Below are positions 16,339-31,098 of a stretch of 37,651 bases of DNA, piece by piece. The translations under genes were made by a program, and so were the position numbers. Under the pieces are notes generated by a model. That model made no database searches, had not been told where the DNA came from, and worked only from the letters and a program-made list of their open reading frames with translations. Each line of letters begins with the position of its first letter. The first letter of the stretch is position 1. The DNA is from an uncultured Butyricicoccus sp. (GTDB lineage Bacteria > Bacillota > Clostridia > Oscillospirales > Butyricicoccaceae): assembly GCA_944381965.1 (NCBI GenBank), contig CALWMO010000004.1, positions 1 through 37,651 on the forward strand, in the 5' to 3' direction.

Positions 16339-17046
16339 TCACATGCCATATGCAAAAATTTCCCTAAATAGCTGGTCAACAGATTTTCCCTCTTGTTCTC
16401 TGATGTTATCAACCGTATCATATCTGACTATATTTCCATTTTGTAAGAAAATAGCCTCATCAAGCACTCTTTCTATATCTGAAATCAAATGGGTTGATAT
16501 AATAACTGTGCCTTCTTCATTGTAATTTGTAAGTATAGTGTTTAATATAAAATCTCTTGCCGCTGGGTCAACGCCTGCAATAGGTTCATCAAGTAAATAA
16601 AGCTTTGCCTTTCGGCTCATTATCATAGCAAGCTGAATTTTCTCTTTTGTTCCTTTGCTCATTGTCTTGATTTTATCATTTGGTGCAATGCCTAATGCTG
16701 CCAACATTTCCATAGCTTTGTTTTTATCAAAATCACTATAAAAATCTGCGAAAAACTCCATTAAATCACACGCTTTAAACCAATCAGCAATAAACATACG
16801 GTCTGGCAAGTAAGAAATTACACTTTTTGTCTGTGTTCCTATGTTTTTGCCATCTACTGTAAGTACACCGCTTGTAGGCTGTAAAAGACCACAAAGAAGC
16901 TTAATAAATGTTGTTTTTCCTGACCCGTTTGGCCCAAGTAAACCAACGATTTTCCCCGAACCTATCTCAAGATTTATGTTGTTAAGTGCGGTTATATGCT
17001 GATATGTTTTAGTCAGCGACCTTGCAGAAACAAGTATATTATTCAT
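16339..17046 (-). CDS. ABC transporter ATP-binding protein
   Basis: A 235-aa ATPase that would drive the adjacent permease. Walker A GPNGSGKT is at 38-45 and Walker B LYLLDEP near 152-158, followed by a D-loop (GVDP) and switch histidine (STHLIS). The signature motif is unusual: MSKGTKEK instead of LSGGQ, a variant also found in YtrB/YhcH-like transporters. The ATG at 17046 lies 8 nt inside the 3' end of the GntR gene, so the two are translationally coupled. Confidence 0.93.
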   Translation of the reverse strand: MNNILVSARSLTKTYQHITALNNINLEIGSGKIVGLLGPNGSGKTTFIKLLCGLLQPTSGVLTVDGKNIGTQTKSVISYLPDRMFIADWFKACDLMEFFADFYSDFDKNKAMEMLAALGIAPNDKIKTMSKGTKEKIQLAMIMSRKAKLYLLDEPIAGVDPAARDFILNTILTNYNEEGTVIISTHLISDIERVLDEAIFLQNGNIVRYDTVDNIREQEGKSVDQLFREIFAYGM

Positions 17047-17407
17047 GGTTTTCCCTCCAGTTAGCTATTAAATTTTTTATATCATTTTCGGTATATCCTA
17101 AAGCTTTCATAGAATTTATAAATTCATTTATTCGCTCTAAAGCGATTTTGTCACGCATTTGCCTTATAAGCTGCATATCCTCGGTTACAATTCTTCCTGT
17201 TGTGCGTTTTGTTTCAATTAGTCCCTCACTTTCAAGCTCTGACATAGCTCTTTGCACTGTGTTTGGATTTACTCCTGCCTCTGATGCTAACGCTCTTACC
17301 GATGGCAGTGCTGAACCTGACTCATATTTACCAGATATAATTTGAAGTGTTAACTGCTCTGATAGCTGGAGCCATATAGGTCTATCATTTGAAAACTCCC
17401 ATGCCAT
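17039..17407 (-). CDS. GntR-family transcriptional regulator, YtrA type
   Basis: A 122-aa regulator with an N-terminal winged helix (about 10-75; SVRALASEAGVNPNTVQRAM is the recognition region) and a short helical tail instead of a large ligand domain, as in the YtrA subfamily. It heads an operon with an ABC ATPase (8-nt overlap) and permease, the standard YtrA arrangement in which the regulator represses its own operon until a wall-active compound is present. An inverted repeat directly downstream of the -10 box is the probable operator. Start: ATG at 17407 with AGGAGG 7-8 nt upstream. Confidence 0.92.
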   Translation of the reverse strand: MAWEFSNDRPIWLQLSEQLTLQIISGKYESGSALPSVRALASEAGVNPNTVQRAMSELESEGLIETKRTTGRIVTEDMQLIRQMRDKIALERINEFINSMKALGYTENDIKNLIANWRENHE

Positions 17408-17635: not shown

Positions 17636-17653
17636 CCGTTAAATTATTGACAA
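17636..17653. promoter_or_regulatory. Candidate Rex operator on the bcd promoter
   Basis: CCGTTAA-ATTA-TTGACAA matches TTGTTAA-N4-TTAACAA at 11 of 14 defined positions and overlaps the -35 box. Rex control of bcd operons is established in Clostridium; here it is a prediction. A matching element lies on the but promoter. Confidence 0.4.
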
Positions 17654-17674
17654 AGTTTTTCGATGCGTTATAAT
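17647..17674 (+). promoter_or_regulatory. Promoter of bcd-etfB-etfA
   Basis: A perfect TTGACA (17647-17652), a 16-nt spacer and a perfect TATAAT (17669-17674). Transcription would start near 17682, about 187 nt ahead of the bcd ATG. Confidence 0.85.
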
Positions 17675-17681
17675 AATAGTA

Positions 17682-17868
17682 ATGGACACCAAAAAGAACG
17701 TCCTAAATACTAGGTCGCTTTATAGTGGGATTTGAGTTAATTTCTCCTGTTTTGAAGAAGAGGGGCGAAATTTGTAGCTAAGTTTTTACTCATCGGCTAG
17801 CTTGCTATAAAGAGAGCTCGACCGGTGTATTAATTTTTGATTGAATATTTTTTGGGAGGTTTCACAGC
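17682..17868 (+). ncRNA. Structured 5' leader of bcd-etfB-etfA, type not recognised
   Basis: The leader is unusually long and folds by eye into several hairpins. One pairs AATTTCTCCT (17739-17748) with AGGGG-CG-AAATT (17761-17772) with a 2-nt bulge. Another is a two-part stem: CATCGG (17791-17796) with CCGGTG (17822-17827), enclosing AGCTT (17799-17803) with GAGCT (17814-17818). A weaker GGAC/GTCC pair lies at the 5' end. No T-run follows, and the ribosome site GGGAGGT (17854-17860) is about 26 nt after the last stem, so control would more likely be on translation or mRNA stability than on termination. I do not recognise a known riboswitch class. Confidence 0.45.
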
Positions 17869-19014
17869 ATGGATTTTAGGCTTACAAAAGAGCAGGAAAT
17901 GATGCAAAAGCTTTGCCGTGAATTTGCGGTAAACGAGATTGAGCCAATCGCAGCAGAAATCGACGAGGAAGAACGCTATCCGTTTGAAACCGTTGAAAAA
18001 CTGCGTAAGTATGGTATGATGGGTATTCAGTATCCAAAGGAATTAGGCGGTTCTGGCGGTGACACTATTTGTTACTCTATCGCTATTGAAGAGGCTTCTA
18101 AATTCTGCGGTACTACTGGTTGTATTATCTCCGCACATGCTACTCTGGGTGCTTGGCCAATCTTTAAGTTTGGTACTCCAGAACAAAAGGAAAAGTGGCT
18201 TCGCCCTCTAATCGACGGCACTAAGACTGGTGCTTTCGGTCTGACCGAGCCAAATGCCGGTACTGACGCTTCTGCTCAGCAGACAACTGCTGAAAAGCTG
18301 GAAGATGGTAGCTGGCTTGTTAACGGTTCTAAGGTATTTATCACCGGTGGCGGTGTTGCTGATACTTACGTTATCTTTGCTATGACTGACAAGACCAAGG
18401 GCAACCATGGTATTTCTGCTTTCATCGTTGATAAAGATGACCCTGGTTTCTCTATCGGTAAAATTGAGCATAAGATGGGTATTCGTGGTTCTCAGACCTC
18501 TGAGCTTATCTTTGAAGATATGGTTCTTCCAGCTGACCGTCTGCTCGGCAAGGAAAATGGCGGCTTTAAAATCGCTATGATGACTCTTGACGGCGGTCGT
18601 ATCGGTATTGCTTCTCAGGCTCTTGGTATTGCTCAAGGTGCTCTTGATAAGGCTGTTCAGTACATGAAAGAACGTGTACAGTTCGGCAAGAGCCTTGACA
18701 AATTCCAAGGTCTTCAGTGGATGGTAGCTGATATGGCTACTAAGATTGAAGCTGCTCGTCTACTCGTTCGTCGTGCTGCTTTCAATAAGGACAATGGTCT
18801 GCCATACACTAAGGAAGCTGCAATGGCTAAGCTATTTGCTGCTGAAACCGCTATGGAAGTTACTACTAAGTGCGTACAAATCTACGGTGGTTACGGTTAT
18901 ATCCGTGAGTACCCAATGGAGCGTATGATGCGTGACGCTAAGATCACTGAAATCTACGAAGGTACTTCAGAAGTACAGCGTATGGTTATCGCTGGTCAGA
19001 TTTTCAAGAAGTAA
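17869..19014 (+). CDS. bcd: Butyryl-CoA dehydrogenase (short-chain acyl-CoA dehydrogenase)
   Basis: An FAD enzyme that in butyrate-forming anaerobes reduces crotonyl-CoA to butyryl-CoA, with EtfAB supplying electrons from NADH and, in bifurcating complexes, reducing ferredoxin. The 381-aa protein has the three usual domains. Seen are the FAD/substrate motif FGLTEPNAGTDAS (about 123-135), FITGG, and the catalytic base E364 in EIYEGTSEVQ. The length is typical. The ATG at 17869 has GGGAGGT 8 nt upstream. etfB starts 20 nt after its stop and etfA follows, the classic order; crt, thl and hbd are not here. Strong codon bias (GGT, CGT, GCT) suggests high expression. Function follows from family and operon, not from a unique residue. 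Confidence 0.93.
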   Translation: MDFRLTKEQEMMQKLCREFAVNEIEPIAAEIDEEERYPFETVEKLRKYGMMGIQYPKELGGSGGDTICYSIAIEEASKFCGTTGCIISAHATLGAWPIFKFGTPEQKEKWLRPLIDGTKTGAFGLTEPNAGTDASAQQTTAEKLEDGSWLVNGSKVFITGGGVADTYVIFAMTDKTKGNHGISAFIVDKDDPGFSIGKIEHKMGIRGSQTSELIFEDMVLPADRLLGKENGGFKIAMMTLDGGRIGIASQALGIAQGALDKAVQYMKERVQFGKSLDKFQGLQWMVADMATKIEAARLLVRRAAFNKDNGLPYTKEAAMAKLFAAETAMEVTTKCVQIYGGYGYIREYPMERMMRDAKITEIYEGTSEVQRMVIAGQIFKK

Positions 19015-19034: not shown

Positions 19035-19835
19035 ATGAAAGTTATCGTTTGTGTAAAGCAGGTTCCTGATACCTCCGGTAAGGTTGCAGTTAATCCAGAC
19101 GGCACTCTTAACCGTGCATCTATGGCAACCATCATAAATCCGGATGACAAAAACGCTGTTGAAGCTGCTCTAACTTTAAAAGACAACACAGGCTGCGAAG
19201 TTGTTGTTGTAACAATGGGTCCACCACCAGCAGAAGGTATGCTCCGTGAGCTTTTAGCTATGGGTGCTGACCGTGGCGTTCTAGTTTCTGCTCGTGAATT
19301 CGGTGGCTCTGATACATTCGCTACATCTCAGATTCTAGCTGCTGCTATCAAGAAGATTGGTCTTGATGCTGATGATATCGTTCTTTGCGGTCGTCAGGCT
19401 ATCGACGGCGATACCGCTCAGGTAGGTTCTCAGATTGCTGAAAAGCTTGATATCCCTCAGATTTCTTATGCTGCTGATATCAAGGTTGAAGGCACTAAGG
19501 TCACTGTTAAGCGTATGCTTGAAGATGGTCACATGACTATCGAAACTCAGACTCCATGTCTGCTAACTTGTATCAAGGAGCTAAATGAGCCTCGTTATAT
19601 GTCCGTTGGCGGCATTTTCGATTGCTACAAGAAGCCTGTTGATGTATATGATTACAACACTCTAAAGGACGATCCACTGATTGAGGTTGATACAATCGGT
19701 CTGAAGGGTTCTCCAACAAATATCTTTAAGTCTTTCACTCCTCCACAGAAGGGCGTTGGCCGTATGCTGGAAGGTGCAGACAAGAATGCTTGTGCAGAGT
19801 TAGCTGCTGAGCTACTTAAAAAGCACATTATCTAA
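19035..19835 (+). CDS. etfB: Electron transfer flavoprotein beta subunit
   Basis: A 266-aa subunit that pairs with EtfA and passes electrons to Bcd. It begins MKVIVCVKQVPDT, the standard EtfB start, and contains GRQAIDGDTAQVGSQIAE (about 119-136), the nucleotide/FAD-contacting signature. The length is typical. AGGAGG lies 8 nt before the ATG at 19035. It is second in bcd-etfB-etfA, 20 nt after bcd and 19 nt before etfA. Confidence 0.95.
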   Translation: MKVIVCVKQVPDTSGKVAVNPDGTLNRASMATIINPDDKNAVEAALTLKDNTGCEVVVVTMGPPPAEGMLRELLAMGADRGVLVSAREFGGSDTFATSQILAAAIKKIGLDADDIVLCGRQAIDGDTAQVGSQIAEKLDIPQISYAADIKVEGTKVTVKRMLEDGHMTIETQTPCLLTCIKELNEPRYMSVGGIFDCYKKPVDVYDYNTLKDDPLIEVDTIGLKGSPTNIFKSFTPPQKGVGRMLEGADKNACAELAAELLKKHII

Positions 19836-19854
19836 TTGAAAGGAGAACATACAA

Positions 19855-20970
19855 ATGGCTGAATTTAATAATACAAACTTAGCTGATTTCTCTGGCGTAT
19901 GGGTATTCTGTGAACAGCGTCAGGGTGAACTACAGCCAACCGTACTTGAGCTGATTTCTGAAGCTCGTAAGCTGGCTGATGATATGGGCGTTGAAGTTTG
20001 CGGTCTACTGCTTGGCGGTAAGGGCGTAGGCGAAAAGATGGCAAAGGAACTCGGTGCTTATGGTGCTGATAAGGTTATCGTTTGCGAAGATGATAAGCTT
20101 GAAACCTTCACTACTGATGCATATGCAAAGGTTCTCTGTGACGTTGTTATGGAAAAGAAACCTGAGATTATGTTAATCGCTGCTACTAACATCGGTCGTG
20201 ACCTTGGCCCACGTTGTGCTGCTCGTCTGCACACCGGTCTAACTGCTGACTGTACTCATCTTGATGTAGATGTTGAAAAGTATGTTGCATTCTTAAAGGA
20301 ATGCTCTACTCTCCCACAGGCTCAGCTAGATGCTCTTAATCGTGAAGACCGTAACCTAAAGATGACCCGTCCTGCATTCGGCGGTCACTTAATGGCTACT
20401 ATTATCTGTCCTCGTTTCCGTCCTCAGATGGCTACTGTTCGTCCAGGCGTTCTGAAGAAGGGTGAATATAACGAAGCTAAGGCTAATGCAGTTGTTGTTG
20501 AAAACTTCGCTGCTAACCTAACTGATGCTGATATCAAGACTAAGGTAACTGAAATCGTTAAGGAAGCTAAGGAAATGATTGATTTAACCGGTGCTGAAGT
20601 TATCGTTTCTGTTGGTCGTGGTATCTCTAAGGACGTTGAAAAGGGTATCGAACTAGCTAAGCAGCTTGCTGATGAGCTAGGCGGTATTGTTGGCGGTTCT
20701 CGTGCTGCTGTTGACGCTGGCTGGCTGACAGCTGACCATCAGGTAGGTCAGACTGGTAAGACTGTACGTCCTCGTCTGTATATCGCTCTTGGTATTTCTG
20801 GTGCTATCCAGCATAAGGCTGGTATGCAGGATTCCGAGTGCATCGTGGCTGTAAACAAGGCTGATGCTGCTCCTATCTTTGAATGTGCTGATTACGGCAT
20901 CTGTGGCGACCTGTTCAAGGTTGTTCCTCTGATGATTGACGCTATCAAGGAAGCTAAGGCTACTAAGTAA
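19855..20970 (+). CDS. etfA: Electron transfer flavoprotein alpha subunit
   Basis: A 371-aa subunit that binds FAD through its C-terminal domain (GSRAAVDAGW, then HQVGQTGKTVRP and ALGISGAIQHKAGM) and docks with EtfB and Bcd. It is about 30-35 residues longer than typical EtfA; part of the surplus is an insertion after TADCTHLDVD (about 142-172, FLKECSTLPQAQLDALN) and part an N-terminal addition before GVWVFCE. No extra ferredoxin domain is present. AAGGAG precedes the ATG at 19855. It ends the operon at a strong terminator. Confidence 0.95.
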   Translation: MAEFNNTNLADFSGVWVFCEQRQGELQPTVLELISEARKLADDMGVEVCGLLLGGKGVGEKMAKELGAYGADKVIVCEDDKLETFTTDAYAKVLCDVVMEKKPEIMLIAATNIGRDLGPRCAARLHTGLTADCTHLDVDVEKYVAFLKECSTLPQAQLDALNREDRNLKMTRPAFGGHLMATIICPRFRPQMATVRPGVLKKGEYNEAKANAVVVENFAANLTDADIKTKVTEIVKEAKEMIDLTGAEVIVSVGRGISKDVEKGIELAKQLADELGGIVGGSRAAVDAGWLTADHQVGQTGKTVRPRLYIALGISGAIQHKAGMQDSECIVAVNKADAAPIFECADYGICGDLFKVVPLMIDAIKEAKATK

Positions 20971-24025: not shown

Positions 24026-24060
24026 AAAATCCTCCCTTTAATGGGAGGATTTTATTTTTT
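24026..24060. terminator. Bidirectional terminator between chromate-family pair and trpB
   Basis: AAAATCCTCCC (24026-24036) and GGGAGGATTTT (24043-24053) form an 11-bp stem with a 6-nt loop and T-runs on both sides. Confidence 0.92.
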
Positions 24061-25435
24061 ACTGAATACCTTCTAGTTTTGGCAGAGATGCAAAACCCTT
24101 TTCCAGTTCTTCGTCAGTAGGAATATAGTTTTGCATTGTCTTTGCTCTATGTGATGAATATGCTGTCATATCAAAATAACCTGTACCAGTAAGACCAAAT
24201 AGAATTGTTTTAGTCTCACCAGACTCTCTGCACTTAATAGCCTCATCAATAGCTGCACGAATTGCATGAGCTGATTCTGGAGCCGGTAAAATAGTTTCCT
24301 TCTGTGCAAAGTATACCGCTGCATCAAATACATCTGTTTGCTGTACAGAAGTAGCCTCCATATAACCATCATGGTAAAGCTTGGATACAATAGGACTCAT
24401 ACCATGATATCTTAAGCCGCCCGCATGATTAGCCGCTGGAATAAAGCCTGCACCTAATGTATACATTCTTGCAAGTGGTGTTACCTTGCCTGTATCACAG
24501 AAGTCATATGCATATTTACCTCTTGTCAGTGATGGACAAGATGCTGGCTCAACCGCTAAAATTCTAGGGTTTGCTTTGCCTGTCAGTTTATCTTGCATAA
24601 ATGGTGCAATCAGACCGCCAAGATTAGAGCCACCACCGGCACAGCCGATAACGATATCTGGATATTCACCTAAAATCTCCATAGCGGTTTTTGACTCAAG
24701 ACCGATAATAGACTGATGAAGTAAAACCTGATTTAATACAGAGCCTAAAACATAACGGCAAGATTCGGTAGTTACAGCCTTTTCAACTGCCTCGGAAATT
24801 GCACAACCCAGAGAACCTGTTGTATTAGGGTTTTCGGCTAAAATCTTTCTGCCCGCTTCGGTTGTCATTGATGGTGATGGAGTTACATTTGCATCAAAAA
24901 CTTCCATAATTGCACGTCTAAAAGGCTTTTGCTCATATGAGCATTTAACCTGAAATACGTCAAGCTCTAAACCAAAATATGAACAAGCTTCTGCAAGAGC
25001 TGTACCCCATTGACCTGCTCCAGTTTCTGTTGTCAGTCTTTTAATGCCCTGCTTTTTAGCATAGTAAGCCTGAGCAATAGCAGAATTTAGCTTATGACTG
25101 CCTGATGTATTATTGCCCTCAAATTTATAATAAATCTTTGCCGGTGTATCGAGTGCTTTTTCAAGATTATATGCTCTAATCAGTGGTGATGGGCGATAAA
25201 TCATATATTCTTCCAAAATTTCTTCTGGAATATCGATATAACGATTTGTTGCATCAAGTTCCTGACGAGCTAATTCTTCACAGAAAATAGGATATAAATC
25301 CTGTTCGGTGATTGGTTTCAAGGTTTGCGGATTTAGCATAGGGTCTGGCTGCTCTTTCATATCCGCACGAAGGTTATACCACTGTTTTGGCATCTGGTCT
25401 TCGGTTAAATACAGTCTGTGTGGAATTTTAGGCAT
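24059..25435 (-). CDS. trpB: Tryptophan synthase beta chain, TrpB2 type
   Basis: A 458-aa PLP enzyme that joins indole and serine to make tryptophan. The PLP lysine is K115 in SGSHKLNSA, with TTETGAGQWG and the phosphate loop CAGGGSN as family marks. The long N-terminal region (LYLTEDQMPKQWYNL) and length above 430 aa place it in the TrpB2 group, which often works without TrpA and may scavenge free indole. trpA and other trp genes are absent. The start is ATG at 25435 with GGAG 8 nt upstream; an upstream ATG at 25498 is inside the T-box terminator. It is controlled by a Trp T-box. Confidence 0.94.
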   Translation of the reverse strand: MPKIPHRLYLTEDQMPKQWYNLRADMKEQPDPMLNPQTLKPITEQDLYPIFCEELARQELDATNRYIDIPEEILEEYMIYRPSPLIRAYNLEKALDTPAKIYYKFEGNNTSGSHKLNSAIAQAYYAKKQGIKRLTTETGAGQWGTALAEACSYFGLELDVFQVKCSYEQKPFRRAIMEVFDANVTPSPSMTTEAGRKILAENPNTTGSLGCAISEAVEKAVTTESCRYVLGSVLNQVLLHQSIIGLESKTAMEILGEYPDIVIGCAGGGSNLGGLIAPFMQDKLTGKANPRILAVEPASCPSLTRGKYAYDFCDTGKVTPLARMYTLGAGFIPAANHAGGLRYHGMSPIVSKLYHDGYMEATSVQQTDVFDAAVYFAQKETILPAPESAHAIRAAIDEAIKCRESGETKTILFGLTGTGYFDMTAYSSHRAKTMQNYIPTDEELEKGFASLPKLEGIQ

Positions 25436-25477
25436 AACAATCGCTCCTTTTATAATAAAAAATTTAAATTTAGCTAA

Positions 25478-25769
25478 CAAAAAAGACTCCTGCCCCATAC
25501 AATGGGACAGAAGTCTGAAAATTCATCTTCTGCGGTACCACCCAAATTGATGCAAATATGCACCCACTCAAGCAAACGTACAAATCATACGCCTCCCCTT
25601 GGTAACGGGCGGGAATCCCGTCTCAGCTACTTAGAAATAAATCTGTTCACCTTGCCCTTAGAAGTCCATTCATATCGGCTCTAAACACCTGCCGCAATCT
25701 CACCGCCTGCGACTCTCTGAAAGGCTGAATTCCGAACTACTACTCTTCGTCAACGGTTTATACCTTATG
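25478..25769 (-). promoter_or_regulatory. T-box leader, tryptophan-specific
   Basis: An RNA leader that binds uncharged tRNA and so switches trpB on when tryptophan is scarce. The conserved T-box GGGTGGTACCGCAG is the complement of 25530-25543. The terminator is a 15-bp hairpin (arms 25484-25498 and 25502-25516) followed by a T-run. Stem I elements are present, including AGAGA near its base. The specifier is read as TGG (complement of 25666-25668) in GAATGGAC, i.e. tryptophan, which fits the gene. The leader is ~290 nt and fills the gap between trpB and its promoter. Confidence 0.92.

Positions 25770-31022: not shown

Positions 31023-31098
<76 letters not shown>

Follow-up and report, generated by a model that had tools for sequence, protein, structure and literature searches.

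The untranslated leader of bcd-etfB-etfA, the butyrate operon, is a real, family-restricted and uncatalogued structured RNA and, judging from aligned sequences, its fold is kept in shape but not in sequence across Butyricicoccaceae. With modest confidence, we favor the reading that it is a bcd-specific leader of this family which would stabilize the mRNA and promote its translation, behind a promoter that is probably redox-controlled. Bcd-EtfAB carries the energy-conserving step of gut butyrate formation, and an uncatalogued conserved leader on its operon implies that the RNA itself also helps to set this step, be it as a long-lived and strongly translated message or as a switch. The leader would also constitute a natural 5′ element for expression engineering in anaerobes. 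“The window” designates the whole stretch of DNA that was analyzed, 37,651 nucleotides from an uncultured Butyricicoccus sp. whose assembly is fragmented and comprises 1.88 Mb.

On the forward (+) strand, a sigma-A promoter with a 12/12 match (TTGACA at 17647-17652, a 16-nt spacer and TATAAT at 17669-17674) precedes a predicted +1 at ∼17681-17682. As the bcd ATG lies at 17869, the untranslated leader is ∼187 nt long; its G+C content is 38%, versus 20% for the intergenic DNA upstream. The near-perfect promoter, the ∼187 untranslated nucleotides and the leader richer in GC than its intergenic flank, all of which had been claimed in a preliminary description made from the sequence, are thus borne out. 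Features are listed with their coordinates below.

Features of the bcd leader and operon (positions in the window)
Feature	Positions	Strand	Basis or remark
Rex-operator-like element ccGTTAAATTATTGACAA over the −35 box	17636..17653	+	3 of 14 consensus positions differ from TTGTTAANNNNTTAACAA; binding putative
Promoter TTGACA-16-TATAAT	17647..17674	+	12/12; kept in family leaders
P0, 5′-terminal hairpin, GGAC (17684-17687)/GUCC (17700-17703)	17684..17703	+	2-3 nt from predicted +1; arm-swap; family-wide covariation
Candidate anti-Shine-Dalgarno strand (GAAC, UCCUAAA)	17696..17707	+	minimum-energy and consensus folds; not above chance overall; excludes P0 in this genus
P1, long-range closing helix, AAUAC (17706-17710)/GUAUU (17827-17831)	17706..17831	+	both strands invariant in g1 and g5
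P1b, GGUCG (17713-17717)/CGACC (17819-17823)	17713..17823	+	4 of 5 genus members
P2, CUUUAUAG (17718-17725)/CUAUAAAG (17805-17812)	17718..17812	+	invariant 8-bp complement in 5 of 5 genus members, including diverged L006
P3, internal hairpin with purine-rich loop (GAAGAAGAG)	17738..17773	+	consensus fold
Hairpin B, the CATCGG/CCGGTG stem of the preliminary description	17791..17827	+	in minimum-energy fold; competes with P1b/P2
AU-rich linker from folded domain to Shine-Dalgarno	17832..17853	+	17% G+C over 17832-17855; AU-rich linker also in other leaders
Shine-Dalgarno GGGAGG	17854..17859	+	sequence; invariant in aligned leaders
bcd (acyl/butyryl-CoA dehydrogenase)	17869..19014	+	Pfam acyl-CoA dehydrogenase domains
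etfB	19035..19835	+	
etfA	19855..20970	+	

The nearest bcd relatives are found in Butyricicoccus, Agathobaculum and Intestinibacillus. Forty distinct leaders, the window's own included, were taken from five Butyricicoccaceae genera, designated g1 (the genus of the window), g2 (Agathobaculum), g3, g4 and g5 (which includes Intestinibacillus); bcd has its own promoter in each. Separate alignments were used for g2 (19 leaders), g4 (11 leaders) and g1 (5 leaders). At the bcd loci looked at outside these five genera, the gene follows a crt/hbd-like coding sequence or unrelated upstream DNA, and a DNA similarity search in plasmids gave no match. Rfam returned no family at the leader, even at E ≤ 5, and nothing at the leader in the loci of 11 relatives at E ≤ 0.5, which agrees with the failure of the first description to match it to a known riboswitch or T-box.

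Folded alone, the window leader has a minimum free energy of −46.0 kcal/mol and a z score of −1.17 versus dinucleotide shuffles, of which 24 of 200 were as good; single-sequence stability is therefore no evidence for a fold. The g2, g4 and g1 alignments agree in their layout: P1 closes the domain, and inner helices surround an interior that varies. Common to the leaders are this long-range closing helix, a genus-specific interior within it, an AU-rich linker after it and, last, a strong GGGAGG. Consensus energies compared with column shuffles were better than 300 of 300 both for g2 (z = −5.2, or −6.4 without the last 20 columns) and for g4 (z = −4.3, or −7.0 without these columns). For g1, z was −1.9 (18 of 300 shuffles), and −2.8 (3 of 300) without the last 20 columns, a weaker signal that is due to there being only five sequences. 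Pair counts in g2 and g4 gave compensatory changes exceeding both shuffles and slid versions of the alignments. The structured leader of the preliminary description thus stands as a conserved fold, with the compensatory changes in relatives' bcd leaders to which that description had looked for support (in g2 and g4, and in the arm-swaps of P0 and P1), but not on the folding of the window sequence by itself.

In each of the 21 leaders from g1, g3, g4 and g5, P0 opens 0 to 3 nt downstream of the predicted +1; the window's version has a stem of 4 bp and a loop of 12 nt. Its arms vary between species and complementarity is retained. In an arm-swap permutation among 17 leaders, the observed value was −168.9 versus a mean of −94.0 and was matched by 0 of 20,000 permutations, or by 1 of 20,000 with ten divergent representatives (figures that should not be considered exact probabilities, as the permutation ignores the kinship of the leaders). 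Because the arms change yet stay complementary, it is RNA pairing that is selected and not a DNA operator sequence, and the reading of this 5′ inverted repeat as a DNA operator was rejected. In g2, P0 is weak if present at all, and the invariant element there is instead the start of the transcript, its first 14 nucleotides (AGACATGCTCCAAA); this motif has a single mismatch-free copy, upstream of bcd, in nearly every g2 genome.

P1 is made of different but complementary pairs in g2 and g4, and AAATAC and GTATT are retained in g5 too. Its arm-swap was matched by 37 of 20,000 permutations outside g2 and 285 of 20,000 within g2, to be read with the same reservation about kinship. In g1, P1 and P2 do not vary and all their positions pair; this accords with the fold and gives no covariation. 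The two-stage stem to which the preliminary description drew attention (hairpin B, with arms CATCGG at 17791-17796 and CCGGTG at 17822-17827) does appear in the minimum-energy fold of the window, but no compensatory change was found in it within the window genus, where P1 and P2 are the conserved helices instead. Hairpin B is mutually exclusive with P1b and P2. The best fold of the window leader that contains P2 has −44.4 kcal/mol versus −46.0 kcal/mol overall, and for leaders L002 and L004 the P2 fold is better than that with hairpin B; by these fold models, both may exist.

Known mRNA stabilizers leave few unpaired nucleotides at the 5′ end, protecting the transcript against RppH and RNase J. 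The bcd leader serves one gene and combines a 5′ hairpin, a self-contained fold, an AU-rich ramp and a strong Shine-Dalgarno sequence, which fits a leader that stabilizes the mRNA and promotes translation. Transcription would start just upstream of P0, leaving 0 to 3 unpaired nucleotides at the 5′ end, and the domain after P0 would close on itself by a long-range helix (P1, P2) around the variable interior. An unstructured AU-rich ramp leading to the strong GGGAGG would then permit efficient translation. Butyrate fermentation would thereby have a long-lived, well-translated mRNA for the flavoprotein complex that it uses most, and on/off control would be exerted mostly at the promoter, where a Rex-type operator (NADH/NAD+) would cover the −35 box.

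Precedents for a 5′-terminal stabilizing hairpin are ompA and papA, as cited in PMC3997798; the stability of B. subtilis aprE is described there as needing both a 5′ stem-loop and ribosome binding (Hambraeus et al. 2002, cited in PMC3997798). In C. acetobutylicum, a 5′ stem-loop gave 4.6-fold higher expression (Lee et al. 2016, as reported in PMC7181999). Like ompA, papA, aprE and the synthetic C. acetobutylicum stem-loop, the bcd leader has a hairpin at the predicted extreme 5′ end, few unpaired nucleotides and a strong ribosome binding site downstream. Unlike them, it adds a long-range closed domain with compensatory change, and its hairpin is weak in g2. A plain stabilizer also leaves unexplained the invariant AGACATGCTCCAAA that stands in place of P0 in g2; a short hairpin would do, so that the conserved domain of ∼100-200 nt would be superfluous; and the fold model for the window prefers the P0 strand paired with the Shine-Dalgarno sequence.

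Such pairing is the core of a translational switch, a reading that we regard as unlikely. A strand after P0 (overlapping P0 in g1) would pair with the Shine-Dalgarno sequence, and P0 formation or some other factor would free it, so that two exclusive states (P0 on and anti-Shine-Dalgarno off; P2 versus hairpin B) would yield regulated translation of bcd-etfBA. RNAalifold independently predicts the helix between the two strands in three genera, the invariant AGACATGCTCCAAA of g2 is complementary to UUUUGG..GGUAU and so able to pair with the Shine-Dalgarno region, and GUCC in the window is common to P0 and the anti-Shine-Dalgarno strand. Moreover, the fold energies with P2 and with hairpin B differ by ∼2 kcal/mol or less, and 5′-end pairing to the Shine-Dalgarno sequence in leader L001 has p = 0.03; in most leaders, however, such pairing is non-significant. 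The helix is also invariant and gives no covariation; since both of its strands are invariant, covariation cannot test the switch pairings. Mean Shine-Dalgarno pairing was compared with shuffles keeping the same 3′ end, and native and shuffled values were 0.64 and 0.68 for g1, 0.50 and 0.68 for g2, 0.70 and 0.74 for g3, 0.68 and 0.70 for g4, and 0.41 and 0.68 for g5. Occlusion above chance was therefore not found on average, and the sequence is less paired than in shuffles in g2 and g5. Because it is no more paired than in shuffles, occlusion is not a general design, and we rejected it as the main role of the leader. More doubtful still is a bistable switch in which P0 and the anti-Shine-Dalgarno strand compete and a fermentation-state signal sets Bcd-Etf translation; this signal may be redox, a CoA ester or a flavin, acting directly or via a protein. 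Leaders that sequester the Shine-Dalgarno sequence (riboswitches, RNA thermometers and ribosomal-protein leaders) are like the bcd leader in being structured, with a strong Shine-Dalgarno sequence and possible alternative folds. The bcd leader differs from them in having no occlusion above chance, no aptamer-like common core and no Rfam match, and in serving one gene only.

Recognition of the domain by Bcd/Etf or another RNA-binding protein, in the manner of autogenous control, appears improbable. Like autogenous leaders, the bcd leader is present once in each genome and invariably at the gene to which it belongs, and g4 has a conserved, genus-specific loop (GAAAGCCAGATC), but no loop motif is common to the genera: the g1, g2 and g4 alignments and the g5 comparison gave no common unpaired motif and only per-genus loops. 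In g4 leaders (L016:1365-1500, L020:1363-1500 and others), GAAAGCCAGATC is kept in different reading frames with changing stem neighbors, and it is possibly a genus-specific protein or RNA contact.

Control might instead be purely transcriptional, via the Rex-like operator, with the RNA structure passive. The consensus TTGTTAANNNNTTAACAA was taken from PMC5367854, which reports action of Rex on the clostridial crt-bcd-etfBA-hbd genes. An element over the −35 box (GTTAAATTATTGACA) is conserved in bcd promoters of the family and has one mismatch-free copy per bcd-bearing genome of the window genus, and a rex gene (PF06971) is present in seven of seven genomes of that genus. As in the clostridial Rex regulon (crt-bcd-etfBA-hbd, thl and adhE), the same enzymes, a Rex-like palindrome over −35 and rex in the genome are found together; unlike there, bcd heads an operon of its own and the candidate site is three positions off consensus. 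Since a genome scan with the consensus at two mismatches was not above control (the bcd element itself has three), Rex control of the promoter, with binding presumed from the site, should be considered likely and not more. As the sole mode of control it is highly improbable and already disfavored by covariation, since P0, P1 and the inner helices all carry compensatory changes, which show that RNA pairing is under selection.

We give slightly less weight again to a metabolite riboswitch for a CoA ester, flavin or nucleotide. Such ligands had been put forward in the preliminary description and a long, conserved structured leader on a central metabolic operon would suit them, but no unpaired core is common to the genera, the interior varies in sequence and length (leaders range from ∼100 to 208 nt), and the window leader and those of 11 relatives are empty in Rfam. 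With covariance models R1 and R2, each genome gave essentially a single convincing copy, and it was always the one at bcd, other matches being weak; the RNA is thus not a regulon riboswitch, and a regulon RNA was rejected. The idea of ligand binding accordingly finds no support, and a stabilizing and translation-promoting leader, with transcription controlled through a Rex-like operator, is the simpler account of the observations. No intrinsic terminator was found on the + strand in 17682-17868, which also speaks against attenuation or a T-box, the only T-box of the window being at 25500-25762 (−). An ATG at the predicted +1 opens a 17-codon frame at 17682-17735 (+), MDTKKNVLNTRSLYSGI, and most relatives' leaders have an ATG at or near +1 (a leaderless-type start); a leader peptide was rejected because frames and stops are not conserved and L006, L022 and L025 have no start.

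Some observations concern the genes themselves. In NCBIfam, EtfB and EtfA (19035-20970, +) score over the cut-offs set for AcrB and AcrA, the Etf subunits of acryloyl-CoA reductase, and the dehydrogenase scores under that of AcrC; note that the assignment of butyryl- versus acryloyl-CoA as substrate of Bcd-Etf is from context. Divergent from bcd, and sharing its intergenic region, are a short GntR-family regulator gene at 17039-17407 (−) and then an ABC ATPase gene at 16339-17046 (−). The Rfam scan of the window gave only a tRNA at 31026-31098 (−) and the T-box leader, which at 93.6 bits is barely at the gathering score of 93 and sits upstream of a gene for a PLP-dependent enzyme at 24059-25498 (−).
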